IMG/VR virus record: IMGVR_UViG_3300048587_000696
Span: 20,878 to 84,877 of that record
Strand: one strand, 5' to 3'
Origin: a virus
Length of the DNA: 64,000 nucleotides
In this document: in pieces, positions 11,595 to 62,650 of the stretch
Position numbering within the stretch: position 1 is the stretch's first letter
Layout of the letters: every line of letters starts with the position of its first letter
Translations under genes and position numbers: made by a program
Notes under the pieces: generated by a model
What the model saw: only the letters and a program-made list of their open reading frames with translations
Databases searched by the model: none
Told to the model about the DNA's origin: nothing

Positions 11595-11615
11595 CCGCCG
11601 CCCTAGGGTCCGTGG

Positions 11616-12914: not shown

Positions 12915-12962
12915 CGGAATCTCCTTCGTGACATCCGCGCGTCACGCGACGTGTGAACTGTA

Positions 12963-13785: not shown

Positions 13786-13786
13786 A

Positions 13787-14269
13787 TCAGTGCTTGGCCG
13801 CTCCCGTCAGCATCACGTAATACGTGCCTGCGATCGTGCCGCTCGAGGCCAGCTTGCGGACTGCCAGCACCCGGTACTTCCGTCCAGTGACCACCACCGA
13901 CGCTGCACCGTCGAACACAGTGCCCCCGTCAGGCAGGTCCACGTCCTCATCGACCACACGGGCCAGCGCTTCCGTCTCCAGGGCCCACCCGCCCAGCTCG
14001 GCCTGCAGCTTGTCCCGGGAGGTCGAGGCCATCGACCACAGCTCCGTGAACAGACACGGCACCGCGACTTCGGGACGAACCGTTTCGCCCTCGTCGTCGA
14101 CCGGCGCCTGGGGATCAGCCTTGGGGGTCAGGGGCGAGGCGCCCGGCGGCAGCGGAAACACACCGGCAGGTGTCGGCCGCACCAGGGGATAGCGCACGGT
14201 CAACACGTATTCGCTGGTACGAATACGTTCGACGACCCGCTCGCGCACGCGCGCTGCGTGGACGCCCAT
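13787..14269 (-). CDS. Putative head-tail joining / neck protein, 160 aa
   Basis: The longer open frame reaches 14455, but the ATG at 14269 overlaps the TAA of the preceding gene (TAATG), and the upstream extension is Gly/Arg/Pro-rich shadow sequence, so the start is placed at 14269. Residues 1-30 are charged and helical (RVRERVVERIRTSEYVLTV), then a Pro-rich loop, then a beta-rich C-terminal half with VVVTGRKYRVLAVRKL. Position between a gp6-like connector and tail-completion genes suggests a neck or stopper protein. No diagnostic motif was seen. Confidence 0.6.
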   Translation of the reverse strand: MGVHAARVRERVVERIRTSEYVLTVRYPLVRPTPAGVFPLPPGASPLTPKADPQAPVDDEGETVRPEVAVPCLFTELWSMASTSRDKLQAELGGWALETEALARVVDEDVDLPDGGTVFDGAASVVVTGRKYRVLAVRKLASSGTIAGTYYVMLTGAAKH

Positions 14270-14715
14270 TAGTGAATCCGCGCGTTCGCAGATTGCCGCT
14301 GGTACGTGACCAGCAGCTCGTCGCGCTTCAGCTCGAGTCCCTCGAGCATGCCACGGTACGCCTTCTCCGCCTGGATCGAAGACTCTTCCTCCAGCCCTGA
14401 CCGCCAGCTGATACCCAGCTCGCCACGGTCCACGCGCTGGCGGTATGTGGCCCACAGCACGTCCGCCGCCACCGCATAGACCAGGATCATCGCCTGGTCG
14501 TCCGTCGCGCCCTGGAGGCCGTACGTGCCTGGCTGGGCCTTATTGGTGCCCACGGCGATCGTGGAGAACCCAGCCACCTGGCGCACCCCCAGCTCCAAGG
14601 CTGCGTCTCCCGCGGCCTCCAAGAGCTGGGTGTCCGTACGGCGCTCCGCCGCACGGTCCACGTCGGCCACCTTGCGACGGACCATCTTGAGCCACTGCTC
14701 AGTCGTTACCGCCAT
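14269..14715 (-). CDS. Head-tail connector (HK97 gp6-like), 148 aa
   Basis: Helical 148-residue protein just after the capsid genes, with ERRTDTQLLEAAGDAALELG and DDQAMILVYAVAADVLWATY followed by a long C-terminal helix. This layout is characteristic of gp6-like adaptor proteins that ring the portal. GGAGG precedes the ATG at 14715 by five bases. Assigned from position and secondary-structure pattern. Confidence 0.6.
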   Translation of the reverse strand: MAVTTEQWLKMVRRKVADVDRAAERRTDTQLLEAAGDAALELGVRQVAGFSTIAVGTNKAQPGTYGLQGATDDQAMILVYAVAADVLWATYRQRVDRGELGISWRSGLEEESSIQAEKAYRGMLEGLELKRDELLVTYQRQSANARIH

Positions 14716-19071: not shown

Positions 19072-19497
19072 TTACCCGCCCAAGCCGTACGGGACCTCGG
19101 TCAGAGGCGGCAGCGGAAATCGGTCGTACAACTCCGGCGCACGCGATTCCGCGAAGTACCGTTCCTCAATACTTGAGATCGTACGCTGTCGCCGTGGGCT
19201 CATGTACGGCTGCATCCGCTTCATCAATTGCAAGGCCACCCGCCCGGACACCGCCATGCGATACGTCACCGAAACGTCAGTGCGATTGTCCCGCCGATCG
19301 CGCCGGGAGTAGCTCCGGCGCAGCAGCGCCGCAATGCGCGCGATGACCTGTTCGTCCTTCATTTCCACTTCAATCCGCGGCCGACCTCCGGTGTATCCAA
19401 AATACCCTTCACCCTCGAGCAGTCCGACCAACCAGAAGAAGGTGTGGGAGTCGTCGACAATGGCCCGCCGCGCTCCCACCGCCAGCCCCGCCTCCAA
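19072..19497 (-). CDS. Free-standing LAGLIDADG homing endonuclease, 141 aa
   Basis: Site-specific DNA endonuclease of the single-motif LAGLIDADG type, which normally works as a dimer. The motif is FFWLVGLLEGEGYFGYTGG, with the acidic Glu at the end of helix 1. It is followed by the expected strands (RPRIEVEMKDEQVIARIAAL) and a C-terminal VALQLMKRMQPYMSPRRQRTI, typical of the family. It starts with TTG at 19497, eight bases after GGAGG contained in the last codons of the portal gene, and only three bases past the portal stop, so it is translationally coupled to the portal. There is no intron or intein around it. Confidence 0.8.
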   Translation of the reverse strand: MEAGLAVGARRAIVDDSHTFFWLVGLLEGEGYFGYTGGRPRIEVEMKDEQVIARIAALLRRSYSRRDRRDNRTDVSVTYRMAVSGRVALQLMKRMQPYMSPRRQRTISSIEERYFAESRAPELYDRFPLPPLTEVPYGLGG

Positions 19498-24571: not shown

Positions 24572-24961
24572 TTACTCCCCCTCCACCCCGTCATCGTCGC
24601 GCTCCGCCACCCGCCGTGGGACCGCCACACGACCTCGGGTGTAGTTCATCACCAGGGCGAGTTCCCCAGGCGCGCGTTCGACGATTTCTTCCCCCACTTC
24701 CATGCGAGCATCCAGCGACTCCGTTGACGACAGCTTTTCTTTGCGCAAGAAGTCGATCATGCGGAACTTCACCGACTGGCGGATGAAAGCGTCCGGATTG
24801 TCCCGGGCCAGCCTGGGCTGGCAATTCCACAAAGCGACCAGGCCCTCCTGGTACAAGTCCTCAACCAGGGCGTCGTTCGTCATCGCCAGCTTGCGCGCGA
24901 TGGCGCGAATGACCGACTTGTACTTCGGGTAGTACGTGGCTTCAAATTCTTCATTGGTCAT
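24572..24961 (-). CDS. Sigma factor region 2 subunit (split phage sigma), 129 aa
   Basis: Resembles only region 2 of sigma-70/ECF factors, the part that binds the polymerase clamp and melts the -10 element. Residues about 8-75 carry YYPKYKSVIRAIARKLA, NDALVEDLYQEGLVALW (region 2.2, DLYQEG core) and DAFIRQSVKFRMIDFLRKEK (regions 2.3-2.4). Region 4 is absent, and the last 50 residues are an acidic/basic tail. The neighbouring upstream gene looks like region 4. Start is placed at ATG 24961 after GGGGAG. An upstream TTG (25018) would add codons rich in rare AT-ending triplets and has no ribosome-binding site. It stops 2 bases before the terminase operon's GTG. Confidence 0.8.
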   Translation of the reverse strand: MTNEEFEATYYPKYKSVIRAIARKLAMTNDALVEDLYQEGLVALWNCQPRLARDNPDAFIRQSVKFRMIDFLRKEKLSSTESLDARMEVGEEIVERAPGELALVMNYTRGRVAVPRRVAERDDDGVEGE

Positions 24962-25045
24962 CCGCTCCCCAGCCTTCTGCGCCTGTATTAGGTCGTGCGC
25001 ATACCATTTCTGCCGCAATCCAGACGATTCCGGTGGATTAAGTGG

Positions 25046-33166: not shown

Positions 33167-33838
33167 CTACGGCCGGACCGCAATAGTCGCCCCCAACACC
33201 CAGCCGGTGCCTGTACGAGAAAACGTGTCCACGTCGAACGCCGCGACTTCGCTCTCCGCCGCGGCCGCCGCGACGCCGATGTTGACCCCGCCCTGTGAGA
33301 CCTGGTACAACGGACAATTCGCGGGGTACGCGCTGACCGTGTCGCTGCCATTTGCCCAGGCGTAGGCCGCGACCCAGAGCGTCTTCTCCACATCCCACCC
33401 CGCCGGGTTAAACGACGGCAGGTTCAGATCGCTATTGAAGTTGTCAAATTGCCCCGTCGTGACAGCAACGTCCGACAGCGTCCCGCCCCAGCTAGTGATC
33501 CGATGCGCGACATAGGCGACACGCGCCCCGGCGCTCAGCGTCAACCCGACCGTCCCTCCCTCACCTCCCGTAGCCACCCGCGCGTACACGGTCAGTTGCA
33601 CCACTGAGTTGCTGTTCCAGGTGACCAGTTGTGTCCAGTCCGCGACCGTTGCCGTGGCCGTCCCAGCGTTCGCGATGATCAGCAGCAGCAGCTGCCCGGA
33701 GGCAATGCCTGACGGCAGGTCAAGGGTGTGCGACGTCAGCCCCGCAGATTCGTAATCGGACACCGACGCCGCGACCAGCGGGAAACCACTGCCCACCGGC
33801 GCCCCCGCACCCCACCCGAACGCCTGAATCCCGAGCAT
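33167..33838 (-). CDS. Fibre-cluster beta-sandwich protein, paralogue A, 223 aa
   Basis: Begins at ATG 33838 overlapping the TAA of the preceding fibre gene (TAATG). The Thr/Ser/Val/Gly-rich sequence has a 'HTLDLPSGIASGQLLLLIIA' strand pair followed by W-containing strands and ends GWVLGATIAVRP. The same outline (LPSGIVTGELLLLAF...W..) occurs in the genes at 34483-35163 and 37872-38537. All three encode likely beta-sandwich virion surface domains, possibly carbohydrate binding. Exact function unknown. Confidence 0.6.
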   Translation of the reverse strand: MLGIQAFGWGAGAPVGSGFPLVAASVSDYESAGLTSHTLDLPSGIASGQLLLLIIANAGTATATVADWTQLVTWNSNSVVQLTVYARVATGGEGGTVGLTLSAGARVAYVAHRITSWGGTLSDVAVTTGQFDNFNSDLNLPSFNPAGWDVEKTLWVAAYAWANGSDTVSAYPANCPLYQVSQGGVNIGVAAAAAESEVAAFDVDTFSRTGTGWVLGATIAVRP

Positions 33839-34416
33839 TACGACTGGCTCAGGTAGCTGACATACCACGTGGCACCCGCCACCAGCGACACGAGGTTGTA
33901 GATCCGCACTTCCCCGCTCGGGATCGGGACCGCAGGGGCACCCGCCGCCATGTAATTCGCATTCGTGATTGCGAACGTCGCCGTGCCATTTCCCGTCACC
34001 ACCACGGTCAGGCGCGCACCCCGCCCCGAGGCGGGCGGGTTCGTCACGGTCATCGTCGCGTTGCCCGTCAGGGTACAGGTCGCGACGTTGCCGAGCGTGT
34101 AGTCCGCGTTGAAGGCCCCCGTGACGTTTCCGATCGCGTTGACCTTTTCCGCGTAGTCGGTGAGATACGCACGGGACAGTTCATTGTCCTGCAGCGCCGC
34201 CGTACCGCTCACCGTCAATCCGACCAGCGTACCCACGCTCGTGAGCGACGACGCCGTCACGCCCGCCGCCAGCGTGGCACCAGTGAGGGCGCCCGCATCA
34301 CCAGCCGCCACGAGCTTGATCCAAGCCCCGCGCGCTGTACTGTACGCCCACGTCGCGCCATTGGCGGTATAGGTCTGCCCATTGGTGGGCGCGGACGGAA
34401 AATCAAGAACAGCCAT
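33838..34416 (-). CDS. Short tail-fibre protein, 192 aa
   Basis: N-terminus MAVLDFPSAPTNGQTYTANG then TWAYSTARGAW, a motif found at the start of many phage fibre proteins and shared with the 765-residue fibre at 35160-37457. The middle ALTGATLAAGVTASSLTSVG is also shared. It lacks the long repeat body, so it looks like a minimal version of the large fibres. It ends in a beta-rich tip. Confidence 0.65.
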   Translation of the reverse strand: MAVLDFPSAPTNGQTYTANGATWAYSTARGAWIKLVAAGDAGALTGATLAAGVTASSLTSVGTLVGLTVSGTAALQDNELSRAYLTDYAEKVNAIGNVTGAFNADYTLGNVATCTLTGNATMTVTNPPASGRGARLTVVVTGNGTATFAITNANYMAAGAPAVPIPSGEVRIYNLVSLVAGATWYVSYLSQS

Positions 34417-34482
34417 ACAGTCTCCTCACAGTTGTCCCGCGCTCCACACACCCGCCATGCCCGCACAAGCCGACCCTCGGGG

Positions 34483-35163
34483 CTACGGTCCTACCCCAAG
34501 CGTGCACGCCACCCACGAGTCACCCGTCCCCGTCGTGAACGCAGTCGGATTCTGACTTGCCGCCGTCGCCGTTCGCGTAGCCCAGGCCAAACACACGCCT
34601 TGCGCGTTGTTATCCTCTACTGTGCCCGTGCTGACGAAATCCGTCGGGAACGCGGTCAACGCTCGACCGGAAGTGCCGTCGTCCTTGGCGGCGAACGCGA
34701 ACCACAGCGTCTGCTGCGTGCCCCACGTGGGGGTCAGCGATGGGGGGTCCGCCGATGTGCCACTGCCTGTTGTGATTGCCCCCTCGACCGACGACAAGCT
34801 CAGCCCACCGGAGGGGCGACTGATCCGATACACGCGAAACGCGTTTCGCTCGGAAGCGGAGGTCGTGACACTCACCGCTGCCCCCTCCGACCCATCCGCA
34901 ATACGCTTCAGCACCGTCAGCCGCACGGCCGACTCGCTCCCCGCTGAGACCGCTTCAGTCCATCCAGTGGCCGTCGCCGTCGCGTCGCCGTCGTTCGCGA
35001 AAGCAAGCAGGAGCAACTCACCTGTCACGATGCCGGACGGCAACGTGACCGAGTGGGTCGTACCGAACGTGAGCGCGGCGCTTTGCGGCGTCCCCTCCAC
35101 CACCGGAGGGCCCGTCGGCGCCGCAGCGTTTCGGTACGCCGCTAGTCGTCCGATACCGATCAC
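34483..35163 (-). CDS. Fibre-cluster beta-sandwich protein, paralogue B, 226 aa
   Basis: Start ATG 35163 overlaps the end of the large fibre gene by 4 bases. It shares the outline 'VTLPSGIVTGELLLLAFAND' plus a following TGWTEAV strand with the neighbouring paralogues. Cys-poor and Thr/Ser/Gly-rich, it is likely an adsorption or fibre-tip protein translated together with the fibre. Confidence 0.6.
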   Translation of the reverse strand: MIGIGRLAAYRNAAAPTGPPVVEGTPQSAALTFGTTHSVTLPSGIVTGELLLLAFANDGDATATATGWTEAVSAGSESAVRLTVLKRIADGSEGAAVSVTTSASERNAFRVYRISRPSGGLSLSSVEGAITTGSGTSADPPSLTPTWGTQQTLWFAFAAKDDGTSGRALTAFPTDFVSTGTVEDNNAQGVCLAWATRTATAASQNPTAFTTGTGDSWVACTLGVGP

Positions 35164-37457
35164 GTGTACGGTCCGCTATACGACCCGAGCCACACCGTCC
35201 CACCATCGACGCTGATCAGTGTGACCAAGGTGACCTGATTCGCCGTCCCCAAGGAGGGCGGCGTACCGCCCACCCACTTCACAGACCCGGGCCACGCGAT
35301 CGTCCGCCCTCCGGTAGCGTCCTGCGTGACATACACACTGAGGGTCGCCGCCCGGCCGGAGGCCGGTGGGTTCGACAAGGTCAGCGAGGTGATGTTGCCC
35401 GACAGCGTGCACGTCACCACGTTGCCCAGCGAGTAGTCGAACGTTTGCGCGCCGCTGATCGACCCGCGCGCATTCAGCTTTTCGGCGTAGTCCGCAAGGA
35501 GGGGCCGCGTCAGCTCGTTGTCCTGGAGTGCGACCGTGCCGCCGACCGTCAAGCTCGTCAGCGTGCCCACGCTCGTGAGCGACGACGCCGTCACGCCCGC
35601 CGCCAGCGTGGCGCCGGTCAGCCCACCCGCCGCCGCGTCCACCGTAATGTTCGCGCTGCCGTTGAACGACACCCCGTTGATCGTGCGCGCGGTCTGGAGC
35701 ACCGTGGCGCTGCCCGCATTGCCGGTCACCGTGGTCTGGTCGCCCGTGTTCGTCCCCGACACCGTCGCCGTGGCCGAGACCGTCAGGGTCGCGCCGTTCG
35801 CGATCGTCAACGTCGCGCTGGTCGCCGGGGCGGTGATCGCCACCTTGTTGATCGAGGTCGCCGTCGCCACCCCGAGCACCGGAGTCACCAGCGTCGGGGT
35901 CGTCGCGAACACCAGCACGCCGGTGCCCGTCTTGTCAGACATCACGCCCGCGAGCTGCGCGCTCGTGGTCGGGGCAAACTGCGCCAGCGTGCCAGAGGTC
36001 AGGGCGTCGCCACCACCCCCGATGGGCTGCCAGGTGTTGTCGCCCCGCAAGAACGTGGTCGAATTCGCCGTGCCGGTGCCCAGACGCGCCGTGCCCACCG
36101 TCCCCGTCGTCAGGTTGCTGGCGTTCAGTGCCGTCAGGGCCGCACCGCTGAGAGCGGGCAGCGCCGAGCCACTCAGCGTCTCTGCCGCCGCCGTGACCGT
36201 AATGTTCGCGCTGCCGTTGAACGACACCCCGTTGATCGTGCGCGCGGTCTGCAGCACCGTGGCGCTGCCCGCATTGCCGGTCACCGTGGTCTGGTCACCC
36301 GTGTTCGTCCCCGACACCGTCGCCGTGGCCGAGACCGTCAGGGTCGCGCCGTTCGCGATCGTCAACGTCGCGCTGGTCGCCGGGGCGGTGATCGCCACCT
36401 TGTTGATCGAGGTCGCCGTCGCCACCCCGAGCACCGGAGTCACCAGCGTCGGGGTCGTCGCGAACACCAGCACGCCGGTGCCCGTCTTGTCAGACATCAC
36501 GCCCGCGAGCTGCGCGCTCGTGGTCGGGGCAAACTGCGCCAGCGTGCCAGAGGTCAGGGCGTCGCCACCGCTTCCGCTCGAGCCACCGCCGTTGGTGTCC
36601 ACCCACTGCGAGGTATTAGCGTCCGCGAAGTAGATTCGCAGCGACCCGGACTCGCTGTCCCACCACAAATCCCCGGCCGTCGGACTGCCTGGCGCCGTCG
36701 TGCCCACCGAGACGCTGGCGCCACCACCTCCGCCCGTCGCCGCGATCGTGATCGACCCTGCACCCGGGGTAATGGTGACGTTCGCTCCCGCCACCAGGCT
36801 CGCCAGGGTGTACCCCGTGCCGTTGCCGATCAGCAGCTGGCCGTTGGTGGGCGTCGCCGTCAGGCCGGTGCCCCCCTTGGCGACCGTGACCGTGGCCAGC
36901 TTGGTGGCCGCAATGGCCGCCCCCGCGCTGATGTCCGCATCCACGATGCTGTTCGTGAGCGCCAGCTTGCTGTACGCAATCGCGGCCGAGGCCGACACCT
37001 TGGCGTTCGTGATCGCCAGGTTGTCAATCGTCCAGGTCGCCCCCGACCCCGAGACCGTGATGTCGCCCTTGTCGCCATCCGCGACACCGCCAGAACCCAA
37101 CGGTCCCACGGTGGATCCGTTGGCGCGGTAGTACACCCCCGCGCTCGTCATCCACACATCGCCGTTCGTTGGCGCCGACGGCGCCGTTCCCTGCGGCAAG
37201 CGGAATCCCGAGCCGCCCACCGCAGAGGCTGCGGTCAACAACAGCCCCGACAGTGTCAGCGATGCCAGCGTGCCCACGCTGGTCAGAGAGGACGACAACA
37301 CCCCGGCCGCCAACGTCGCACCCGTCAAGGCCCCCGCATCCCCCGCCGCAATCAGCGGTTGCCAGGCCCCACGCGCAGTGCTGAACACCCACGTCGAACC
37401 GTTGGCCGAGTAGGTCTGCCCATTGGTCGGACTGGTAGGGAAATCAAGGGCTGCCAT
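35160..37457 (-). CDS. Large repeat-containing tail fibre, 765 aa
   Basis: Fibre N-terminus MAALDFPTSPTNGQTYSANG, then low-complexity Thr/Ala/Ser/Gly beta repeats: VAKGGTGLTATPTNGQLLIG and TLASLVAGANVTITPGAGS, and a module LAGVMSDKTGTGVLVFATTP that occurs twice and is nearly identical at DNA level (35640-36010 and 36192-36567). The C-terminal domain (ADYAEKLNARGS, GGRTIAWPGSVKWVGG) is the likely receptor-binding or trimerisation tip. A sister fibre is at 38537-40840. Confidence 0.8.
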   Translation of the reverse strand: MAALDFPTSPTNGQTYSANGSTWVFSTARGAWQPLIAAGDAGALTGATLAAGVLSSSLTSVGTLASLTLSGLLLTAASAVGGSGFRLPQGTAPSAPTNGDVWMTSAGVYYRANGSTVGPLGSGGVADGDKGDITVSGSGATWTIDNLAITNAKVSASAAIAYSKLALTNSIVDADISAGAAIAATKLATVTVAKGGTGLTATPTNGQLLIGNGTGYTLASLVAGANVTITPGAGSITIAATGGGGGASVSVGTTAPGSPTAGDLWWDSESGSLRIYFADANTSQWVDTNGGGSSGSGGDALTSGTLAQFAPTTSAQLAGVMSDKTGTGVLVFATTPTLVTPVLGVATATSINKVAITAPATSATLTIANGATLTVSATATVSGTNTGDQTTVTGNAGSATVLQTARTINGVSFNGSANITVTAAAETLSGSALPALSGAALTALNASNLTTGTVGTARLGTGTANSTTFLRGDNTWQPIGGGGDALTSGTLAQFAPTTSAQLAGVMSDKTGTGVLVFATTPTLVTPVLGVATATSINKVAITAPATSATLTIANGATLTVSATATVSGTNTGDQTTVTGNAGSATVLQTARTINGVSFNGSANITVDAAAGGLTGATLAAGVTASSLTSVGTLTSLTVGGTVALQDNELTRPLLADYAEKLNARGSISGAQTFDYSLGNVVTCTLSGNITSLTLSNPPASGRAATLSVYVTQDATGGRTIAWPGSVKWVGGTPPSLGTANQVTLVTLISVDGGTVWLGSYSGPYT
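35640..36010. repeat. Fibre direct repeat, copy 1
   Basis: About 370 bases nearly identical to 36192-36567 and 39020-39366. I see only scattered single-base changes, for example tggtcgcccg versus tggtcacccg. It encodes SDKTGTGVLVFATTPTLVTP, SATLTIANGATLTVSATATV and related stretches. Such repeats allow recombination between and within fibre genes. Confidence 0.85.
36192..36567. repeat. Fibre direct repeat, copy 2
   Basis: Second copy in the same 765-residue fibre gene, offset 552 bases from copy 1. An in-frame recombination between them would shorten the fibre by 184 residues. Confidence 0.85.
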
Positions 37458-37529
37458 ACATCACTCCTCCGCGTCACTACGAGAGTCCAGTCCGCTATCG
37501 GCTACCGCACTCGCGGGCCGCGGCACCTG

Positions 37530-37862
37530 CTACGGAGCCACACCGTCCGGGTCGGCGACATAGATGAGCCCCAAGGCCAGTGCAGGGGGGACCAGACTGT
37601 CAACCGCCGCCTGCAGTGCCGCGTCTCCCGCGGGGTCGTCTACAAGCGCAGCGGGATTGAGTGACGGATCAATTGCCAGAGCCCGAACGATCGTCTCCAC
37701 ATTCCGCCTGTCGCCCCGGATGGCAAGTTTGGCAAACGCGTCCTTCCCTGCGTGGCGGGTCGCGCCGACGATCTGGGCCCGCGCCCAGCGCATGATCGCC
37801 ACGCGCACGCGGGCAACGAACCCCTCGTCCTTCAATGTCTGGTCAACGGCAGTGAGGCTCAC
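37530..37862 (-). CDS. Small helical fibre-region protein, 110 aa
   Basis: Mostly helical, Ala/Val/Arg-rich protein (DEGFVARVRVAIMRWARAQI, then DRRNVETIVRALAIDPSL) between two fibre modules. This size and style recur among small virion proteins of unknown function in long-tailed phages. There is a near-promoter site with mismatches 120 bases downstream (37485-37510), which I do not count. Confidence 0.55.
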   Translation of the reverse strand: MSLTAVDQTLKDEGFVARVRVAIMRWARAQIVGATRHAGKDAFAKLAIRGDRRNVETIVRALAIDPSLNPAALVDDPAGDAALQAAVDSLVPPALALGLIYVADPDGVAP

Positions 37863-37871
37863 CTGATGCTC

Positions 37872-38537
37872 CTATGCTGGATTGATTGCGATGATGGCGA
37901 CGACGCCGCTCATACCCGCGCTGTAGGTGATGTCCTCGCCGCCGTAGCTACCTGCCGCCGTCGCTTCCTTTGACCACACAAGCAAGCTGTTCGCTGCTGG
38001 CTCTGACTGGATTACCAACGTGTACCCGGAAGGTCCGGACGTCAGGTCAGGCGAAGGCGACCCCGAAAACGCAAGCAGTAGCGCCCCGCCCTCGGTCGTG
38101 CTGATACTCGGCAGCACATGGGGGTTAGTGGTGTTTGCTCCCACTGCGGCGCCGACGTCGTACGGGGTGCCCGCGTCGTGTCCTGAGATGCGGAGTACAG
38201 CAGCCTGCGACCCGGTAGTTGGCGAGCCGCTAAAGGTCACGGTCAGTGTGTCGTCGGCAAGCCCATCTGCGATGCGTGTCGCAACGCCAAGGCGAATGTT
38301 GCCGAACCCATTAGAGGTGTGCAGGCGTGCATCCCACCCCGCCGACACGGTCTGCCCATTGGCATTCTCGTTGATGCAGATGGACACCAACAGGTCGCCC
38401 ACCGAGCCGCTCGGGGTGGTCGGGGTGTTGGTCCCGACAGCCCCCTCGATGTTGACCGCGCCGGGAGTGATCGTCCAACCGCCGCCGCCACCGCCCGCCT
38501 GCTTGGCAAACCAACCGAATCGCGACGCCCCGCGCAT
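37872..38537 (-). CDS. Fibre-cluster beta-sandwich protein, paralogue C, 221 aa
   Basis: ATG 38537 overlaps the fibre stop (TAATG). An N-terminal Gly-rich linker (AKQAGGGGGGWTITPG) is followed by beta strands with TTPSGSVGDLLVSICINENA and a C-terminal GMSGVVAIIAINPA, the same scheme as paralogues A and B. Each of the three follows a fibre gene directly. Confidence 0.6.
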   Translation of the reverse strand: MRGASRFGWFAKQAGGGGGGWTITPGAVNIEGAVGTNTPTTPSGSVGDLLVSICINENANGQTVSAGWDARLHTSNGFGNIRLGVATRIADGLADDTLTVTFSGSPTTGSQAAVLRISGHDAGTPYDVGAAVGANTTNPHVLPSISTTEGGALLLAFSGSPSPDLTSGPSGYTLVIQSEPAANSLLVWSKEATAAGSYGGEDITYSAGMSGVVAIIAINPA

Positions 38538-40840
38538 TACGCGTGCCCTGCCTTCCACGCCCCATAGATGTTCGCACCGCCGTCCGTCGTGAGCAGCGTG
38601 ATGATGCGCAGCTTGCTCGCCACGCCTGCGGCAGGTGGGCCGTCGTCGCCCCAATCCACCGCCGCAGGCCAACCTGCCAACGTTCGCCCACCGGTCGCAT
38701 CGTCCAGCAGGAACAGCGTCATCGCTCCGAGACGGCCCGCTGCAGGCCAGTTGGAGAGCGTAATGCCGGTGATGTTCCCCGTCAGCGTCATCGTCTTGTG
38801 TGTGCCCGCCGCCGCCGCGTAGTCAAAGGTTGGGGTCGCGCTGAACGACATCGCCTCAACCTTTTCTGACACGTCGACAAACACCGGCCGCGTCAGCTCA
38901 TTGTCCTGCAGCGCGACCGTGCCGCCGACCGTCAAGCTCGTCAGCGTACCCACGCTCGTGAGCGACGACGCCGTCACGCCCGCCGCCAGCGTGGCGCCGG
39001 TCAGCCCACCCGCCGCCGCGTCTACCGTAATGTTCGCGCTGCCGTTGAACGACACCCCGTTGATCGTGCGCGCGGTCTGCAGCACCGTGGCGCTGCCCGC
39101 ATTGCCGGTCACCGTGGTCTGGTCGCCCGTGTTCGTCCCCGACACCGTCGCCGTGGCCGAGACCGTCAGGGTCGCGCCGTTCGCGATCGTCAGCGTCGCG
39201 CTGGTCGCCGGGGCGGTGATCGCCACCTTGTTGATCGAGGTCGCCGTCGCCACCCCGAGCACCGGGGTCACCAGCGTCGGGGTCGTCGCGAACACCAGCA
39301 CGCCGGTGCCCGTCTTGTCGGACATCACGCCCGCGAGCTGCGCGCTCGTGGTCGGGGCAAACTGCGACAAGGGGTTGGCCGTGAGCGCATCGCCCGCGCC
39401 GCCCGCGCCCGGCCCAACGCCGCCATTAGTGTCCACCCACTGCGAGCTGGTGCCGTCGCTGTAGTAGATCCGGAGCGCGCCCGCTTCGCTGTCCCACCAC
39501 AAATCCCCAGCCGTCGGACTACCTGGCGCCGTCGTGCCCACCGAGACGCTGGCGCCACCGCCACCGCCCGTCGCGGCGATCGTGATCGACCCCGCACCCG
39601 GCGTAATGGTGACGTTCGCGCCCGCCACCAGGCTCGCCAAGGTGTAGCCCGTGCCGTTGCCGATCAACAGCTGGCCGTTGGTGGGCGTCGCCGTCAGGCC
39701 GGTGCCCCCCTTGGCGACCGTGACCGTGGCCAGCTTCGACGGGGAAATCGCAGCCGCGGAGTTGATGTCCGCGTTCATGATCCCATCGGTCAGCGCCAGC
39801 TTGCTGTAGGCGATGGCGGCGTCTGCGGCGACCTTGCCGTTATTGATCACCCCAGCATCAATCGTCCAGGTTGCCCCCGACGCCGAGACCGTGATGTCGC
39901 CCTTGTCGCCGTCGGCCACCCCGCCCGACCCCGCTGCTGCGATCGTGATCGACCCCGAGCCGGGAGTGATCGTGACGTTCGCGCCCGCCACCAGGCTCGC
40001 CAGGGTGTAGCCCGTGCCATTGCCGATCAACAGCTGGCCGTTGGTGGGCGTCGCCGTCAGCCCGGTGCCGCCCTTGGCCACCGTGACCGTGGCCAGCTTG
40101 GTGGCCGCGATGTTCGCGCCCGCGGCGATCTTGGCGTCCGTCACCGCGCCAGCGTCAATCGTCCAGGTTGCCCCCGACGCCGAGACCGTGATGTCACCCT
40201 TGTCGCCGTCGGCCACCCCGCCCGACCCCGCCGCTGCGATCGTAATCGATCCTGCACCGGGGGTGATCGTAACGTTCGCGCCCGCCACCAGGCTCGCCAG
40301 GGTATAACCGGACCCGTTGCCGATCAGCAGCTGGCCGTTGGTGGGCGTCGCCGTCAGGCCGGTGCCGCCCTTGGCCACCGTGACCGTGGCCAGCTTCGTG
40401 GCGGCGATGGCCGCCCCCGCGCTGATGTCCGCATCCACGATGCTGTTCGTGAGCGCCAGCTTGCTGTACGCAATCGCTGCGGAGGCCGACACCTTGGCGT
40501 TCGTGATCGCCAGGTTGTCGATCGTCCAGGTCGCGCCCGATCCCGACACCGTGATGTCGCCCTTGTCGCCGTCCGACGCCTCGGGTGGGACAGCCCATAC
40601 TCCATCGCCGCGGAGGAAAACGGTCGCGTTTGCCGTGCCCGTCCCGAGGCGCGCGGTGGGCACTGTCCCGACCGCAAGCTGGGCCGCGCTCAGCCCAGTG
40701 AGCCCCGCCCCGCCGCCTACAAACGCCGTCGCGGTGACCGTGCCTGCCGTAAAGTCGCCGCTCGGATCTCGAGCGACGACCGCGCTGGCGGTGTTCGCGT
40801 TGGTGGCGTTTGCAATGTTCCGTGCGTTGCTCATTCCCAC
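38537..40840 (-). CDS. Large repeat-containing tail fibre, 767 aa
   Basis: Sister of the 765-residue fibre, with a different N-terminus (MGMSNARNIANATNANTASA), hence a different attachment or position. The module VAKGGTGLTATPTNGQLLIG...TLASLVAGANVTITPG occurs three times, alternating with GVADGDKGDITVSASGATWT. The SDKTGTGVLVFATTP module occurs once. The C-terminal tip (PVFVDVSEKVEAMSFSATPT to TTDGGANIYGAWKAGHA) is unlike that of the sister fibre, so host recognition may differ. Confidence 0.8.
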   Translation of the reverse strand: MGMSNARNIANATNANTASAVVARDPSGDFTAGTVTATAFVGGGAGLTGLSAAQLAVGTVPTARLGTGTANATVFLRGDGVWAVPPEASDGDKGDITVSGSGATWTIDNLAITNAKVSASAAIAYSKLALTNSIVDADISAGAAIAATKLATVTVAKGGTGLTATPTNGQLLIGNGSGYTLASLVAGANVTITPGAGSITIAAAGSGGVADGDKGDITVSASGATWTIDAGAVTDAKIAAGANIAATKLATVTVAKGGTGLTATPTNGQLLIGNGTGYTLASLVAGANVTITPGSGSITIAAAGSGGVADGDKGDITVSASGATWTIDAGVINNGKVAADAAIAYSKLALTDGIMNADINSAAAISPSKLATVTVAKGGTGLTATPTNGQLLIGNGTGYTLASLVAGANVTITPGAGSITIAATGGGGGASVSVGTTAPGSPTAGDLWWDSEAGALRIYYSDGTSSQWVDTNGGVGPGAGGAGDALTANPLSQFAPTTSAQLAGVMSDKTGTGVLVFATTPTLVTPVLGVATATSINKVAITAPATSATLTIANGATLTVSATATVSGTNTGDQTTVTGNAGSATVLQTARTINGVSFNGSANITVDAAAGGLTGATLAAGVTASSLTSVGTLTSLTVGGTVALQDNELTRPVFVDVSEKVEAMSFSATPTFDYAAAAGTHKTMTLTGNITGITLSNWPAAGRLGAMTLFLLDDATGGRTLAGWPAAVDWGDDGPPAAGVASKLRIITLLTTDGGANIYGAWKAGHA
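39020..39366. repeat. Fibre direct repeat, copy 3
   Basis: Third copy of the 370-base block, here in the 767-residue fibre gene. The flanking 120 bases (38901-39020) also match 35518-35640, so the total shared segment with copy 1 is about 470 bases. Confidence 0.82.
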
Positions 40841-55550: not shown

Positions 55551-56159
55551 ATGAACCCGATCAAGCAGGCCGTACTCGACTTGTTGCTCACCGACGCGCT
55601 CACCGTGCTTGGTGAGCTCCGCCCGGACGCTGTCCTGGGCGTGGAGCTGTCGGCGTATAGCCGACGGCTGTGGAACGCGGACACGCTCTACGCCGCGGCG
55701 GTCGCCGACCGCGCGGCGGCGGTGGACGCGGCGCACGCCGACGCCACCGCACGCTGGGAGCGCCGGGTACACGCCGCGATGCGTGCGCGGTACACGGCGC
55801 TCGTCGAGGGCGGTGTGGCGCTGCTGGAGCAGGTGGCGCGGCACCCCGCGCTGCCCAGCGACCTGGGTCGCTGGGGCCTTCGCCAAGTGGCGAAGGCGCG
55901 GGCCGCAGGCACGCCGAGCGGGTGGGCCGTGGCCTACGCGGTGCTGCTGCTCCAGTCGAGCATCGACTGGGAGCTGGCGCACAGCGACGCCGACGACGCA
56001 GCGGACGAGCTGTACGGCGAGGCGCTGCACGACGACCAGGCACGCTTCGTCGCCTGGGCGGAGCTCGCGCCGGACGCGTACGCGGGGCTCAACGAGCTCC
56101 GCAGCGTGACCTTCGACCTTGCTCCACCCCATGCCGGTGCCGCGTACGCGGCACCCTGA
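55551..56159 (+). CDS. Early-arm helical protein, family 1 copy A, 202 aa
   Basis: ATG 55551 with AAAGGA upstream. All-helical, Ala-rich. VLGVELSAYSRRLWNADTLY and GWAVAYAVLLLQSSIDWELA align with the product of the gene at 58251-58946 (VLGFTSTRLSRALPDF, YAVVYALLLLDSVVEWERD). The two are diverged paralogues. Unknown function. Confidence 0.7.
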   Translation: MNPIKQAVLDLLLTDALTVLGELRPDAVLGVELSAYSRRLWNADTLYAAAVADRAAAVDAAHADATARWERRVHAAMRARYTALVEGGVALLEQVARHPALPSDLGRWGLRQVAKARAAGTPSGWAVAYAVLLLQSSIDWELAHSDADDAADELYGEALHDDQARFVAWAELAPDAYAGLNELRSVTFDLAPPHAGAAYAAP

Positions 56160-56281: not shown

Positions 56282-56695
56282 ATGCGTGTACTGAGCCTGC
56301 AGGACGTCGTCGTGATCACCCGCACTGCCAAGTCGAGCAAGGCGCGTACGCGCCGCCAGGCCTGGTTCCTCCTCGCCCTGACGGACGAGCGGTTGAAGCA
56401 GGCGGCGCGCGGCGAGCTCGCGCTCGCCCCGGCGGTCAAGCTGCCGCTCGCCGCGGTGGTGGCGCTGCTGTGGCGCATTCGCAAGGTCGCCCTTGCCCAG
56501 TGGAACGCGGCGAGCACGCCGCACGCTCGCGCCGCCGCCGAGACGCAAGCAGTGACGGCGGGGGTTGGGGGCGAGCTGTACTACGCCCCCAACCCGGGTG
56601 CGGACCACGAAGAGTGGGCCGCGGCCAAGGCCGCTGCCAAGTCCGCGCTCTTCGAGGCCGAGTACGACGAGTGGATCAACGACCAGGGCTACTGA
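56282..56695 (+). CDS. Early-arm protein, family 2 copy A, 137 aa
   Basis: ATG 56282 after AAGGAG. A conserved core shared with the gene at 57406-57786: RTAKSSKARTRR, then LPLAAVVALLWRIRKVALAQ and W-AAS, so the two are paralogues about 1.1 kb apart. A basic N-terminal half suggests nucleic-acid binding. The C-terminal part (ELYYAPNPGADHEEWAAAKA) is unique to this copy. Confidence 0.7.
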   Translation: MRVLSLQDVVVITRTAKSSKARTRRQAWFLLALTDERLKQAARGELALAPAVKLPLAAVVALLWRIRKVALAQWNAASTPHARAAAETQAVTAGVGGELYYAPNPGADHEEWAAAKAAAKSALFEAEYDEWINDQGY

Positions 56696-57405: not shown

Positions 57406-57786
57406 ATGTCCGCCAAGAAGCAGCTCACCGCCAGTGACGTCACGATCATCGCCCGCACCGCCAAGTCCTCGAAGGCGCGCACGCGCCGCGAGGGCTGGTA
57501 CCTGCAGCAGCTCGCCACCGAGCGGATCAAGCAGCTCGGCGACGGGTCCCTGCAGCTCGCCTCCGACGTCCGGCTCCCGCAGGACGCCGTCGTGAAGCTG
57601 CTGTGGCGCATTCGCAAGGTGGCGCTCGCGCAGTGGCAGGCGGCCAGCGACGCCGAGAAGGCCAACGTCGAGTTCCTCGACGACTTCCAGGCACGCGCCG
57701 ACGTCGACGGCAATGTGACCTTCGAGCCGAAGCCGGTGAAGGCGGAAACGCCCGCCGAGGCCGCCACGGCCGCCGCGGGCGCGTAA
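57406..57786 (+). CDS. Early-arm protein, family 2 copy B, 126 aa
   Basis: ATG 57406 after GAAGGAG. Core RTAKSSKARTRREGWYLQQL and VVKLLWRIRKVALAQWQAAS shared with the gene at 56282-56695. The C-terminus is instead acidic then Ala-rich (ETPAEAATAAAGA). Unknown, possibly nucleic-acid or host-protein binding. Confidence 0.7.
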   Translation: MSAKKQLTASDVTIIARTAKSSKARTRREGWYLQQLATERIKQLGDGSLQLASDVRLPQDAVVKLLWRIRKVALAQWQAASDAEKANVEFLDDFQARADVDGNVTFEPKPVKAETPAEAATAAAGA

Positions 57787-57856: not shown

Positions 57857-58234
57857 ATGCAGCACAACAGCCGGTGGTGCATGCCAAACCGCCAGCGCGT
57901 GGTCGTGACCGGTGGCCGCGACTACGCGGACACCGCGGCCGTGGAGCGCACGCTCCAGGCCGTGTTCGCCCGGCACCGCGGCGCGACCTTGGTCGACAGC
58001 GGCGCCACGGGCGCCGAAGCATTGGCCCGCGCCTGGGCCGAGCGCACCGGCGTGCCGGTGAAGACCATTCGTCCCGACTGGGACGACGACGGCCGGAGCG
58101 CCGGGTATCGGCGCACCGAACGGGTGTTGCGCCACACCCAAGTGGTAGAACTCGTTGCCTTCCCCGGCGACGGCGTGGTCGCACACGCCGTAGCCACCGC
58201 CGAACAGTTCGGCGTCGATGTCACGCACGGATAA
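57857..58234 (+). CDS. SLOG-family (DUF2493/YspA-like) protein 1, 125 aa
   Basis: Rossmann-like SLOG domain that binds nucleotides or related ligands: RVVVTGGRDYADTAAVERTL (glycine loop), ATLVDSGATGAEALARAWAE (second Gly motif) and RPDWDDDGRSAGYRRTERVL. It matches the small phage DUF2493 proteins. ATG 57857 is used. MPNRQRV (57881) is an alternative start. A paralogue lies at 61983-62330. SLOG proteins have been linked to nucleotide-signal sensing. The phage role is unknown. Confidence 0.8.
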   Translation: MQHNSRWCMPNRQRVVVTGGRDYADTAAVERTLQAVFARHRGATLVDSGATGAEALARAWAERTGVPVKTIRPDWDDDGRSAGYRRTERVLRHTQVVELVAFPGDGVVAHAVATAEQFGVDVTHG

Positions 58235-58250: not shown

Positions 58251-58946
58251 ATGTCCGCAGTCGACACGATCGTCCACGCGGTCTTCGCCCTGCTGGGTGA
58301 AGTCGTGGACCGCCGCCTGGCGCAGCTGGCGCCGGACGAAGTGCTGGGCTTCACCAGCACGCGCTTGTCGCGGGCGCTGCCTGACTTCGACCGGCGCTAC
58401 GCGCTGGCCGTGGCCGAGCGCGCGCCGCACGTCGCGGCCGAACACGCTGCAGCGGTGACGGCCCACGAGCGCTACCGCGAGCACCGCATACGCCAGCTGT
58501 ACCTCGCGACGCTGAAGCGCGGGGTGTACGGGGTGCGCGAGCACGTCGCGGAGCTGCAGCGGCTGCTGGCGGCGCAGGCCAAGCTGGGCCCGGCGGGCGA
58601 CCCGCCCGAGGGCTTGGCCACCTTGGCAAGCTTGCACCGCTGGGCCAAGCGCCAGCTGGCCAAGCTCGAGGCGGCGCCGACGCCGAACCCGTACGCCGTG
58701 GTGTACGCGCTGCTGCTCCTCGACTCGGTCGTCGAGTGGGAGCGCGACCAGCTCGATCCGGACGACGAGGAGCAGCTCCTCGGTCCGGCGGTGCTCGCCG
58801 AGATGGCGCAGTACCAGGAGTACGCGGCCGAGGGCCTCGACGACGGCGCCTTCGACGGCCTGCCGATCGACGCGCCGGTCGGGTTCGCCCCGGAGCACGC
58901 GGGCAAGCCCGCGCCGCACGCCCCAGCCTACGTCGAAGCGGCGTAG
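58251..58946 (+). CDS. Early-arm helical protein, family 1 copy B, 231 aa
   Basis: ATG 58251 after GAAGGAG. Paralogue of the gene at 55551-56159 with an insertion (HVAELQRLLAAQAKLGPAGD) and a longer acidic C-terminus (LDPDDEEQLLGP, EGLDDGAFDG). All-helical. Together with the family 2 pair it shows that a block of this arm was duplicated. Confidence 0.7.
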   Translation: MSAVDTIVHAVFALLGEVVDRRLAQLAPDEVLGFTSTRLSRALPDFDRRYALAVAERAPHVAAEHAAAVTAHERYREHRIRQLYLATLKRGVYGVREHVAELQRLLAAQAKLGPAGDPPEGLATLASLHRWAKRQLAKLEAAPTPNPYAVVYALLLLDSVVEWERDQLDPDDEEQLLGPAVLAEMAQYQEYAAEGLDDGAFDGLPIDAPVGFAPEHAGKPAPHAPAYVEAA

Positions 58947-59797: not shown

Positions 59798-60082
59798 GTG
59801 TCGACGCCGCGTGTGACCCACATCGAATGTATCACCCCGACCTTCGTCCGCGTGTTTTTCGACGACCGCGCGGTAGTGTGCTGCAATATGCTGGGCCGTG
59901 CACCGCAAGGTCCGTGGCGCACCAGTCTGCTGGCGGACGCGCCGGTGCGGTCGGAGCATCGCGCCGCAGCCGCTGCGGCCTGGGACCGCTATGCCGCAGA
60001 AGCGGCCGCGATGGGCCCGGGCGTGCGTGTGCAAGTGGACCCGCCCACGTTCCTGGACCACTTGCAGGCGGTGCTGCAATGA
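59798..60082 (+). CDS. Tandem paralogue array member 1, 94 aa
   Basis: GTG 59798 two bases after the previous stop. It shows the three features that define the array: an N-terminal strand pair FVRVFFDDRAVVC, a central HRAAAAAAW helix and the C-terminal VDPPTFLDHLQAVLQ. Its stop overlaps the next ATG (ATGA). Family not recognised. The short V-x-V-x-F-x-D-G-x-V-V hairpin could be a protein-interaction surface. Confidence 0.72.
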   Translation: MSTPRVTHIECITPTFVRVFFDDRAVVCCNMLGRAPQGPWRTSLLADAPVRSEHRAAAAAAWDRYAAEAAAMGPGVRVQVDPPTFLDHLQAVLQ

Positions 60083-60354
60083 CCTTCCGCGTCGTGCGCC
60101 TTGAGCGCGCCACAAAGCGCCTGCGCCGCGTGTATTTCAGTGACGGTGCCGTCGCGTGCAGCGCCTGGGATGCCCATGACAACGCGCCGTTCTGGACCAC
60201 CAGCGGCAAGTCCAACAGGCGGCTGACGCGGGATCACCAACGCGCCGCAGCCTTCGCCTGGTCAGACGATGACCCACGCCTGGCAATGACAGGCGCCGTG
60301 GTTGACGTCCAGCCCCCGAACTTTCTCGCGCACCTGCAGGAGGTGCTCACGTGA
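60079..60354 (+). CDS. Tandem paralogue array member 2, 91 aa
   Basis: LRRVYFSDGAVACS, then FWTTSGKSNRRL, central HQRAAAFAW and C-terminal VQPPNFLAHLQEVLT. ATGA overlap at its start and GTGA overlap at its end. Closest in motif layout to member 1. Confidence 0.72.
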   Translation: MTFRVVRLERATKRLRRVYFSDGAVACSAWDAHDNAPFWTTSGKSNRRLTRDHQRAAAFAWSDDDPRLAMTGAVVDVQPPNFLAHLQEVLT

Positions 60355-60635
60355 CTCCCACCCTACTCGAACGCACGGTCTCGTACTGGCGCGTGCGCTT
60401 CGACGACGGTGCGGTGCTGGTGTGCCACCGCGCCCAGGACCCGGAGGTGTACTACTACTGGGCCACCAGCGGGTACAGCACCACGGCACCTTCGCGCAGC
60501 CACCATTACGCTGCAGCGGCCGCATGGCAGGCCCACCACGCGCATTTGCCTGCCACGGTGCCCGCGAAGCTGGACCTCGCCGCCCCGACCGCGGGCCGAG
60601 CATTCGTGAACTACCTGCAAGGACTGCTGCAATGA
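60351..60635 (+). CDS. Tandem paralogue array member 3, 94 aa
   Basis: GTG start in the GTGA overlap. YWRVRFDDGAVLVCH, then YYYWATSGYSTTA (same W-x-T-S-G position as member 2), HHYAAAAAW and the ending FVNYLQGLLQ. Confidence 0.72.
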   Translation: MTPTLLERTVSYWRVRFDDGAVLVCHRAQDPEVYYYWATSGYSTTAPSRSHHYAAAAAWQAHHAHLPATVPAKLDLAAPTAGRAFVNYLQGLLQ

Positions 60636-60904
60636 CCCCCATCGCCTATTCCCGCATGATCGCCACGGTGCGTGTCGAGTTTGACGACGGCATGGTGCTG
60701 TGGTGCCCGCTCGACAGCGTGCAGTACCGCGCGGAGTGGGCTATCAGCCAAGGTTCGCACTCGTACCAACACGTGACCGAAGCGCATTTCCGCGCGGCCA
60801 TGGCGATCGCCCGGTCGGTGCCGCCTCCGGCGTACTGGAGCACGACCTACTTGCCGGTCAAGCCGCCGACGTTCGTTGACGCCTTGCAGGAGGTGCTGGG
60901 ATGA
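60632..60904 (+). CDS. Tandem paralogue array member 4, 90 aa
   Basis: ATVRVEFDDGMVLWC, AEWAISQGSHSYQ, AHFRAAMAIA and the ending VKPPTFVDALQEVLG. ATGA overlaps at both ends. Confidence 0.72.
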   Translation: MTPIAYSRMIATVRVEFDDGMVLWCPLDSVQYRAEWAISQGSHSYQHVTEAHFRAAMAIARSVPPPAYWSTTYLPVKPPTFVDALQEVLG

Positions 60905-61170
60905 CGCCCACCCGACTCGGCAAAAGCACGGACTGGTGGGTCGTACACTTCGACGACGCCGTTGTCGTCGCGGCACTCGCCGACACGCCGCGGAGATGGC
61001 AACGAAGCTTTGCCAGTGAGCGTACGCCGACACAGGCCCACTACACGCTCGCCGAGCGCGTCGTGCAGCACTACCTGGCGGGGACGCCGTCGAGCGGGTA
61101 CGACTCGATCCCGCACCCGCCGGTGGGTCCGCAGGACTTCCTGACCGTGGTGACGCAGGCCCTGCAATGA
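60901..61170 (+). CDS. Tandem paralogue array member 5, 89 aa
   Basis: WWVVHFDDAVVVAAL replaces the usual DG by DA. WQRSFASERTPTQ and HYTLAERVVQHYL are in the middle and VGPQDFLTVVTQALQ at the end. It is more diverged but keeps every motif in order. Confidence 0.7.
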   Translation: MTPTRLGKSTDWWVVHFDDAVVVAALADTPRRWQRSFASERTPTQAHYTLAERVVQHYLAGTPSSGYDSIPHPPVGPQDFLTVVTQALQ

Positions 61171-61451
61171 ACCCCCAACCCACTCACCTGCAAGGCGCCT
61201 ACGGCGTCTGGGCGATCCAATTCGCGGACGGCGCGATTGTTGGTCGAAAGCCCGACGACGCGCATTGGCGCACGAGCTGGCTGGGGGCAACGCCCGCGAG
61301 CTGCGGGCATTACCACGAAGCCGAGCGGGCGCTCGCCGCGTACCTGCGCGACCACCCGGACGCCGACCCGTCGGGCACGCCCTTCCGCGTCAACCTGCTG
61401 GACGCGGCCCCACGCGACCTGCTGTCGGCGGTCCAGGCGGTGCTGCAATGA
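61167..61451 (+). CDS. Tandem paralogue array member 6, 94 aa
   Basis: GVWAIQFADGAIVGR, HWRTSWLGATPASC, HYHEAERALAAYL and the ending APRDLLSAVQAVLQ. The central helix resembles member 5 (HY.-AER), suggesting a local duplication of the 5/6 pair. Confidence 0.72.
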   Translation: MNPQPTHLQGAYGVWAIQFADGAIVGRKPDDAHWRTSWLGATPASCGHYHEAERALAAYLRDHPDADPSGTPFRVNLLDAAPRDLLSAVQAVLQ

Positions 61452-61726
61452 CCCCGCACGTGGTACGCGTCACACGTAGCGCGGTCATGGTGCGGGTGTT
61501 CTTCGCCGACGGCGTGGCGGTGTGGGCCTTCTACAACAAGCGACACGACCTCACCCGGTGGCACCAAAGCATGTACGGCGAGGGGGTGCCCACCATGGAG
61601 CATTGCCTCGCTGCCGTGCGGGTGGTCGGCGACCATGCCGAGGCGTTGTCCGTCATGCACACCGTGGTGGAATTGCCGGTGACACCGACCACCCTGCTTG
61701 GCACACTCCAGGAGCTGTTGCGATGA
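61448..61726 (+). CDS. Tandem paralogue array member 7, 92 aa
   Basis: VMVRVFFADGVAVWA, RWHQSMYGEGVPT, EHCLAAVRVV and the ending VTPTTLLGTLQELLR. ATGA overlaps at both ends. Confidence 0.72.
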   Translation: MTPHVVRVTRSAVMVRVFFADGVAVWAFYNKRHDLTRWHQSMYGEGVPTMEHCLAAVRVVGDHAEALSVMHTVVELPVTPTTLLGTLQELLR

Positions 61727-61986
61727 CCTATCCGACCAAGCTGACCTTCGAGCGCAACTTGCTGCGCGTGTACTTCAGCGACGGCGTGGTGCTGGCGCGG
61801 TCCGTGTACGGCTGCTGGATCCCGTCCTCCACGAGCCGCAACCCCGGCGCAGAAACGCCGGAACACTACCAGCAAGCCGAGCAGGTCGAGCGGGACCACG
61901 GTCCCTTGCCGCACTACAAGGGCGAGTGGGCGCTGCCTGCGCCGGAGCACACCCTGATCAGCGCACTCGAAAGGCTCTTGCAATGA
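61723..61986 (+). CDS. Tandem paralogue array member 8, 87 aa
   Basis: LLRVYFSDGVVLARS, PEHYQQAEQVERD and the ending PEHTLISALERLLQ. It is the shortest member and the last clear one. Its stop overlaps the SLOG gene ATG (ATGA). Confidence 0.72.
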   Translation: MTYPTKLTFERNLLRVYFSDGVVLARSVYGCWIPSSTSRNPGAETPEHYQQAEQVERDHGPLPHYKGEWALPAPEHTLISALERLLQ

Positions 61987-62330
61987 GCGGACGCGTGGTG
62001 GTCACCGGTGGCCGTACATACGCCGACCGCGATCGCCTGTACGCCGTGCTCAGCGCGGTGTGGTCGCGGTACCCAGGCTGCACGCTGGTCGAGGGCGGCG
62101 CCTTGGGCGCCGATCGCCTGGCGCGCGAGTGGGCACGCGCCAACGCCGTCGCGGTGGAAACGGTGGTCGCCAACTGGGCGACCCATGGCAAAAGTGCGGG
62201 CCCCCGACGCAATCGCGAGATGCTCGAGCTGCCCGGCGTGCGCCTGGTGGTGGCCTTTCCCGGCGGGCGCGGCACCGCGCACGCCGTGGCGACAGCCAAG
62301 GGGCTGGGACTGAAAGTGAGGCACGCGTGA
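61983..62330 (+). CDS. SLOG-family (DUF2493/YspA-like) protein 2, 115 aa
   Basis: GRVVVTGGRTYADRDRLYAV, CTLVEGGALGADRLAREWAR and VANWATHGKSAGPRRNREML are the SLOG motifs and align with SLOG protein 1 at 57857-58234. It is placed in the same overlapping operon as the tandem array, so the array and a nucleotide-binding domain are co-translated. Confidence 0.82.
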   Translation: MSGRVVVTGGRTYADRDRLYAVLSAVWSRYPGCTLVEGGALGADRLAREWARANAVAVETVVANWATHGKSAGPRRNREMLELPGVRLVVAFPGGRGTAHAVATAKGLGLKVRHA

Positions 62331-62650
62331 ACATTCCTGCAGGCTACTTCCAGTGTCACGTCAGCGGCACCGTGGGCCACTGGTTCCGCGACGAGCGCCA
62401 CCAGTTGCGCCGCGTGTTTGCGTACCACCACGCGGCGGACGACCTCGGGGCCTGGCGGCAGTCGTCCCACGAAGGCACGAAACGCTGGCAACCCGACGAG
62501 CTGGCGCAGCACTGCCGCGAAGCACACCGCCGCTGGGCCGCCTTGCCGACGCGCGATCTCCCCAACGGGCCCGCCGTGCCGGACGGGAGCGCCTGCCGGG
62601 ATTTGCTCAGCACGTTACACCACACCTTGGGAGTCGCACATGCCGATTGA
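62327..62650 (+). CDS. Possible divergent array member after SLOG gene, 107 aa
   Basis: GTG 62327 in a GTGA overlap. It has HWFRDERHQLRRVFAY in place of the strand pair, WRQSSHEGTKRWQ, a central HCREAHRRW helix and an ending CRDLLSTLHHTLG. It is similar in plan to the array but too diverged to be sure. Overlaps the next gene by 11 bases. Confidence 0.6.
   Translation: MNIPAGYFQCHVSGTVGHWFRDERHQLRRVFAYHHAADDLGAWRQSSHEGTKRWQPDELAQHCREAHRRWAALPTRDLPNGPAVPDGSACRDLLSTLHHTLGVAHAD

Follow-up and report, generated by a model that had tools for sequence, protein, structure and literature searches.

A tandem array of deeply diverged small phage proteins that share a terminal helix with other proteins of the same phage

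The internal proteins of bacteriophage T4 (Ip1-3), which ride in the phage head and are injected, are among the closest described parallels to the element considered here, a tandem array of small genes (t1-t8) close to the right end of an 84,877-base virus record (IMGVR_UViG_3300048587_000696). The window that was analysed is the 64,000-nucleotide stretch comprising bases 20878-84877 of that record, whose right end interrupts an operon. In T4, a capsid-targeting leader is the sole common part of the internal proteins, which inhibit different GmrSD restriction enzymes (PMC12373910, PMC3012670), and IPI*, at 76 residues, folds into a compact alpha/beta structure (PMC3012670, PMC12373910). Under selection, T4 also amplifies the inhibitor gene tifA in tandem (PMC9391042). 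In both phages, several small proteins have a short terminal peptide in common, joined to bodies that are unrelated or have diverged strongly. However, the T4 leader is N-terminal, whereas the array tags are C-terminal and N-terminal versions occur on other proteins of the phage only (a comparison made without aligning any T4 sequence to them); moreover, there are nine tandem paralogues here, and packaging is something that we only infer. The array is read, with a probability of roughly 0.4, as an accessory family, amplified locally, in which a portable terminal tag would bring the diverged cores to one shared partner.

Three further systems are comparable to a limited extent. Polyimmunity loci (SUKH and others) likewise consist of tandem, distantly related small paralogues in one operon with no toxin (PMC3482391); unlike them, the array is phage-borne, has no immunity-family match and carries an extra shared tail. 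Encapsulation peptides of bacterial microcompartments are terminal amphipathic helices connected to the cargo by a disordered linker (PMC12339742). The array, too, has a terminal amphipathic helix, a proline-rich linker and a low-confidence tail in its models, but its tag spans about 11-13 residues against typically 18; no microcompartment shell protein genes were found among the phage proteins scanned. Bacillus phage G, with about 35 zinc-ribbon copies, exemplifies a lineage-specific expansion in a large phage (PMC7824862). Here also one small-protein family expanded within one phage, although its copies are contiguous, overlap by four bases and share a tag.

The array as a family of diverged paralogues

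All eight open reading frames (ORFs) that an earlier note on this DNA had listed are present at the claimed starts on the plus strand; their lengths fall within the 87-94 codons given there, and every one overlaps the next by ATGA or GTGA, as the note had described for the four-base junctions. Taken from the ORFs and their alignment, with the score of each member against a profile of the other seven, they are t1 (59798..60082, 94 residues, GTG start, tag PPTFLDHLQAVLQ, 60.9 bits), t2 (60079..60354, 91 residues, tag PPNFLAHLQEVLT, 55.0 bits), t3 (60351..60635, 94 residues, GTG start, tag GRAFVNYLQGLLQ, 63.4 bits), t4 (60632..60904, 90 residues, tag PPTFVDALQEVLG, 47.9 bits), t5 (60901..61170, 89 residues, tag PQDFLTVVTQALQ, 45.9 bits), t6 (61167..61451, 94 residues, tag PRDLLSAVQAVLQ, 40.3 bits), t7 (61448..61726, 92 residues, tag PTTLLGTLQELLR, 63.1 bits), and t8 (61723..61986, 87 residues, tag EHTLISALERLLQ, 28.5 bits). 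These leave-one-out scores (28.5-63.4 bits) far exceed the maximum of 14.3 bits reached in 2,000 shuffles per sequence, and the relationship is therefore beyond chance: t1-t8 are, with near certainty, one family of true paralogues.

Seven columns are invariant (F19, D21, W38, S41, H52, A56, and L91 in t7 numbering). Otherwise the mean pairwise identity of 28% agrees with the low overall identity noticed earlier. Neighbouring members are 31% identical, slightly above that mean (Mantel p 0.046), and the tree of the members is essentially a star in which neighbours are slightly more similar, as expected for an old tandem duplication.

A ninth, very diverged member of 107 residues (62327..62650, plus strand, tag CRDLLSTLHHTLG) follows the SLOG-domain gene located downstream of t8. 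It was found in a profile search of the whole phage (E 0.006), scores 13.8 bits against the array profile compared with a maximum of 10.0 in 2,000 shuffles, and aligns with an hhalign probability of 71.9%, covering the last two thirds of the profile. The other neighbours (59305, 59484, 62640, and the SLOG gene) are unrelated to the array by profile scoring.

Two members were modelled with AlphaFold from the eight-sequence alignment. The t7 model has a mean predicted local distance difference test (pLDDT) score of 90.6 and a predicted template modelling (pTM) score of 0.79, with a pLDDT of about 96 for residues 1-70 and about 65 for the last 20; the t2 model is less confident (mean pLDDT 79.2, pTM 0.70). 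In both, three strands and a helix precede a second helix at the C-terminus, and the uncertain part is confined to the last 20-30 residues, where a linker and tail would be expected to give low confidence. The predicted core is a compact beta-beta-beta-alpha unit with the conserved F, D, W, S, H and A residues. Unrelated folds, which would have spoken against one family, were thus not seen among the single-member predictions, and the shared order of elements in t2 and t7, together with the leave-one-out profiles, bears out the proposal of a single family amplified and diversified in tandem. Foldseek searches of PDB with both models and of BFVD with the t2 model gave nothing significant (best E 0.3-0.5 in PDB and 0.065 in BFVD). 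RCC1-repeat and polo-box entries recurred in the fold look-ups and were rejected, with query TM-scores below 0.35. Net charges of -3 to +3 do not suggest a DNA mimic or a DNA-binding role.

As the earlier note anticipated, the proteins belong to no described family: no credible match was obtained in any library or record collection searched. The array proteins and their profile were compared with Pfam, PHROGs, NCBIfam, PADLOC, and PDB sequences; the best PHROGs match (E 0.012) is not reliable, and PADLOC, with its profiles of defence systems, returned none. Searches with tblastn, using single and joined proteins, found nothing credible among 50,697 phage and 72,556 plasmid records, and a profile search of 398 Pseudomonadota genomes, a sample in which absence is not proof, retrieved no family member. 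Scans of viral contigs with t2 and t3 and of genome contigs with t7 gave no relatives; such scans require an exact short peptide, so that absence is again not proof. Two spaced CTGCAATGA junctions, used as a pattern in viral contigs, located 83 loci, none with a family member, and none was present in whole contigs of relative phages by profile search. For each of the collections searched, the family is a new one.

The terminal helix on other proteins of the phage

The tail of the array proteins is an amphipathic helix, [DTN][LF][LV]xx[LV][QRH]xxL[GQ], usually preceded by a short proline-rich linker; the hydrophobic moment is 0.35-0.65 for most C-terminal tags and lower for a few. The earlier note had regarded this conserved end as part of the fold. 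The helix recurs, however, on unrelated proteins of the phage and is better explained as a portable tag. These proteins are encoded by the IMG/VR contig G001, which is from the same phage, is 99.99-100% identical to the present record across 56.7 kilobases (kb) and reaches 36.8 kb further left.

In hhalign comparisons with the remaining tandem families of this phage, the array profile aligns to three of them solely over their last 13-15 residues, each match being by itself too short for a confident score. Examples of the tag come from family b (PRDLVGALRAVLHG, PTDLLSALNQLLHS), family c (PLTFLEALHATLG, PTNLLDALRLTLN), and family d, whose members contain the DUF6878 domain (PADLLGAVHQALG, PLTLEQVLRQTLG); families c and d are possibly distant relatives. 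Overall, the helix is found at the C-terminus of at least three other families on G001. With a matrix trained on the eight array tails alone, a score of 8 or more is reached by 7 of 185 plus-strand ORFs in the left part of G001 compared with 9 of 11,686 background ORFs (p 2e-9, or 7e-4 when collapsed to three families). On the opposite, minus strand of the same part, none of 191 ORFs passes even a threshold of 5. The enrichment is significant and confined to the early strand. Of the 52 early genes in a set called prior to the discovery of the tag, four reach the threshold of 8, against one of 2,092 gene-like background proteins (p 1.5e-6, or 1.7e-3 counted as two families). The gene-like set was derived from greedy longest ORFs, and its background half was used; in the early region, with its high guanine-cytosine content, antisense ORFs won.

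N-terminal versions of the helix (e.g., MTFLNAIHNALG, MTDLLTTMHATLGG, and MTDLVQAVSNALNPKP) are present on at least three other proteins of the phage. Under a matrix built from the C-terminal tags, three N-termini score 20.3, 18.1 and 12.8, compared with 12.4 for the maximum of 6,649 background ORFs; under the matrix from the array tails only, the best N-terminus scores 12.2, which is near the top of the background and below its maximum of 12.5. The family at L022:2402-3510 starts with a similar MxELYAxLGL, as judged by eye alone. An uncharacterised 510-residue protein (L022:7003-8535) carries an N-terminal tag-like helix followed by a proline-alanine linker (MSDLSADIKGLLSPAAKPPAS); its gene is overlapped by that of a ThiF/E1-like protein (L022:6321-7010).

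The DUF6878 proteins allow tagged and untagged versions of one domain to be compared. Matches were present in 4 of 101 cellular genomes, and the three proteins used (the fourth, translated in a wrong frame, was left out) end shortly after the domain, whereas those of this phage and of its relative G002 (FPLDVTTVLRSTLGIT) consist of the domain, a linker and then the tag. Because the cellular proteins stop where the phage versions carry a tail, the tag is, on this comparison of sequences, an add-on. Selection would act on it at the protein level, since three tags on the other contig (ending at 5839, 6305 and 11978) neither overlap a start nor contain a strong Shine-Dalgarno sequence, and differ in their codons. 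Within the array, the C-terminal codons of some members include AGGAGG or AGGCGG for the next gene, and the Q-x-V-L codons of the tag frequently serve at the same time as a Shine-Dalgarno sequence, so that translation could account for some of the conservation in the array. That the tag is shared at the protein level is nonetheless highly probable.

The SLOG gene, other duplicated families and the phage genome

The gene next in the operon, which the earlier note had named as a SLOG-domain gene, encodes a SLOG protein of the YAcAr/YspA family (61983..62330, plus strand). It is joined to t8 by the same type of junction, an ATGA overlap, and matches PF10686 with 72.8 bits (curated cut-off 28.2; Pfam E 2e-20) and PHROG 289 with E 7e-24. 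A second paralogue (57857..58234, plus strand), 48% identical to the first, lies away from the array. Both are ordinary members of the YAcAr SLOG family, to which the array proteins are not homologous: no array member matches PF10686, and the SLOG protein scores 1.2 bits against the array profile. YAcAr SLOG genes are frequent in phages and 58 SLOG-bearing viral loci contained no member of the array family; given also the position of the second copy, the link is weak evidence and probably ordinary. The co-translation of t8 with the SLOG gene fits a host-interaction operon, although the function of the array is not identified by it.

Besides the SLOG pair, two orphan families are duplicated close to the array, giving three such families in addition to that of the array. 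The copies of family D (55551..56159 and 58251..58946, both on the plus strand) are 42% identical, and those of family R (56282..56695 and 57406..57786, also on the plus strand) 50%. Scans with either orphan family, or with a protein encoded near 51 kb, detected no relatives.

G001 ends before the array, and the related contigs G002 and G003 (about 67% identity) stop short of it too; as no related contig reaches the locus, its copy number is not comparable between related phages. The present record and G001 split inside a tRNA-Pro gene beside a tyrosine recombinase gene (L002:45-118 and 263-1447; L023:16824). The left end of the record is read as a prophage host-phage junction, and the corresponding site of G001 as the attachment site of the phage itself. 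Gene order across the integrase region is the same in G002, and in G003 where it overlaps, so that an assembly error is an unlikely cause of the join in G001. With the contigs diverging in this manner, between a junction and an attachment site, the phage is probably temperate, with a genome of at least 121 kb.

The array sits in a region of small plus-strand genes, on the strand opposite to the structural genes, which presumably continues into the first 36 kb of G001; the term early is inferred from this gene layout. In the left part of G001, small paralogous proteins form about six additional tandem sets, the majority with no known relatives (L022:2402-3510, 5354-6305, 10997-14325, and 17170-17989; L023:204-2667), and several of these carry the terminal helix of the array. 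Its large genes are kept in G002, whereas most of the small genes in between are not.

Some other genes deserve mention. On G001, a class II ribonucleotide reductase gene (L023:11687-14692) is interrupted by an intein-like insert bearing a LAGLIDADG motif, and a small protein (L023:569-760) has about ten lysines in a row near its C-terminus. On the minus strand of the window, the gene at 24572-25018 weakly matches phage RNA polymerase sigma factors (PHROG E 1e-4) and is possibly a late-gene activator. An HNH endonuclease gene (19072-19497) lies amid the structural genes of that strand, and large repeated genes (33167-40840) probably encode tail fibres, the proteins at 35160 and 38537 being close paralogues.

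Possible roles of the array and its tag

Under the preferred reading, local duplication in the early plus-strand accessory region would have amplified the family (t1-t8 and the copy at 62327), and the copies would then have diverged until they were barely recognisable as relatives. Each core is joined to the C-terminal amphipathic helix through a short linker that is usually rich in proline. This tag would dock all tagged proteins onto one common partner, and the diversified cores might be aimed at varied targets in the host or in competitors, counter-defence being the most likely role. Docking to a common partner is reasonably probable, because a short amphipathic helix joined flexibly to unrelated bodies, at either terminus, resembles targeting and docking peptides. 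The counter-defence role is put forward tentatively, and packaging and injection of the tagged proteins, suggested by the analogy with T4, seem rather doubtful. More speculatively than the counter-defence role, the portable helix might be a general address label that many unrelated early proteins carry at one terminus or the other (the nine array members and about a dozen others, DUF6878 proteins included), bringing amplified host-interaction modules to one phage or virion hub.

Several observations weigh against this reading. Among the structural proteins scanned, most of which match nothing, no prohead protease or scaffold could be recognised. The array genes occupy the early strand and the structural genes the opposite one, and the array tag differs in its terminus from the T4 leader. 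Independent tagged families are few (three to five C-terminal and three to four N-terminal) and are not independent draws, the collapsed p being about 1e-3 or slightly lower. Furthermore, the other early region is located on the overlapping contig, separated by a gap from the right end of the window, and the array tag overlaps a Shine-Dalgarno-like sequence.

A compact early operon in which diverged paralogues accompany a SLOG gene, and intervals of small genes that differ between relatives, would also fit a battery of tandem early genes for small inhibitors or decoys, each meant for a different host defence component or signal, with the helix merely structural. Such a battery is unlikely to be the explanation: PADLOC found no defence-linked homologue, SLOG genes are common elsewhere in the company of no array member, and the conserved helix also sits on unrelated proteins. 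This last point bears equally on a hetero-oligomer, in which the eight co-translated paralogues would be made in balanced amounts and joined through their C-terminal helices into a ring or filament. The strict order, the four-base overlaps and the similar lengths agree with such an assembly, as does the low confidence with which the helix is placed on its own core, but four-base overlaps occur in other genes of the phage too, and the assembly appears still less probable than the battery.

In a temperate phage, the array could potentially constitute a polyimmunity-like locus of diverged immunity proteins that shield the lysogen from the toxins of competitors; homogeneous loci of this type are indeed tandem, distantly related paralogues without toxins (PMC3482391). 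Yet no member matches an immunity family in Pfam or NCBIfam, no toxin was recognised nearby, and the array is within a long plus-strand region rather than beside the attachment site, which makes this a very improbable account. Marginally less probable again is a gene-end cassette with little function of its own, which would arise if tandem copying spread a helix-coding 3' end together with the ribosome-binding site of the next gene. AGGAGG or AGGCGG within the C-terminal codons of several members speaks for it, and the junctions overall slightly beat the synonymous expectation (p 0.002, mostly owing to one junction). Such a cassette is, however, difficult to reconcile with tags that have different codons and neither overlapping starts nor ribosome-binding sites, with tags at N-termini, and with the tail kept by the DUF6878 protein of the relative.

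Tandem amplification and the deep divergence that came after it are unusually plain to see in this array, within one phage operon, and the splitting of targets among its paralogues is testable. Most phage biologists would not expect to meet one and the same terminal helix at the N-termini and the C-termini of unrelated proteins. Should the tag prove to be a signal for docking or packaging, it would allow host-interaction proteins to be found by their ends rather than by their unrecognisable bodies, as the leader did in T4. If it is a general address label, it would represent a targeting system not described before, and counter-defence genes could be found by the tag.

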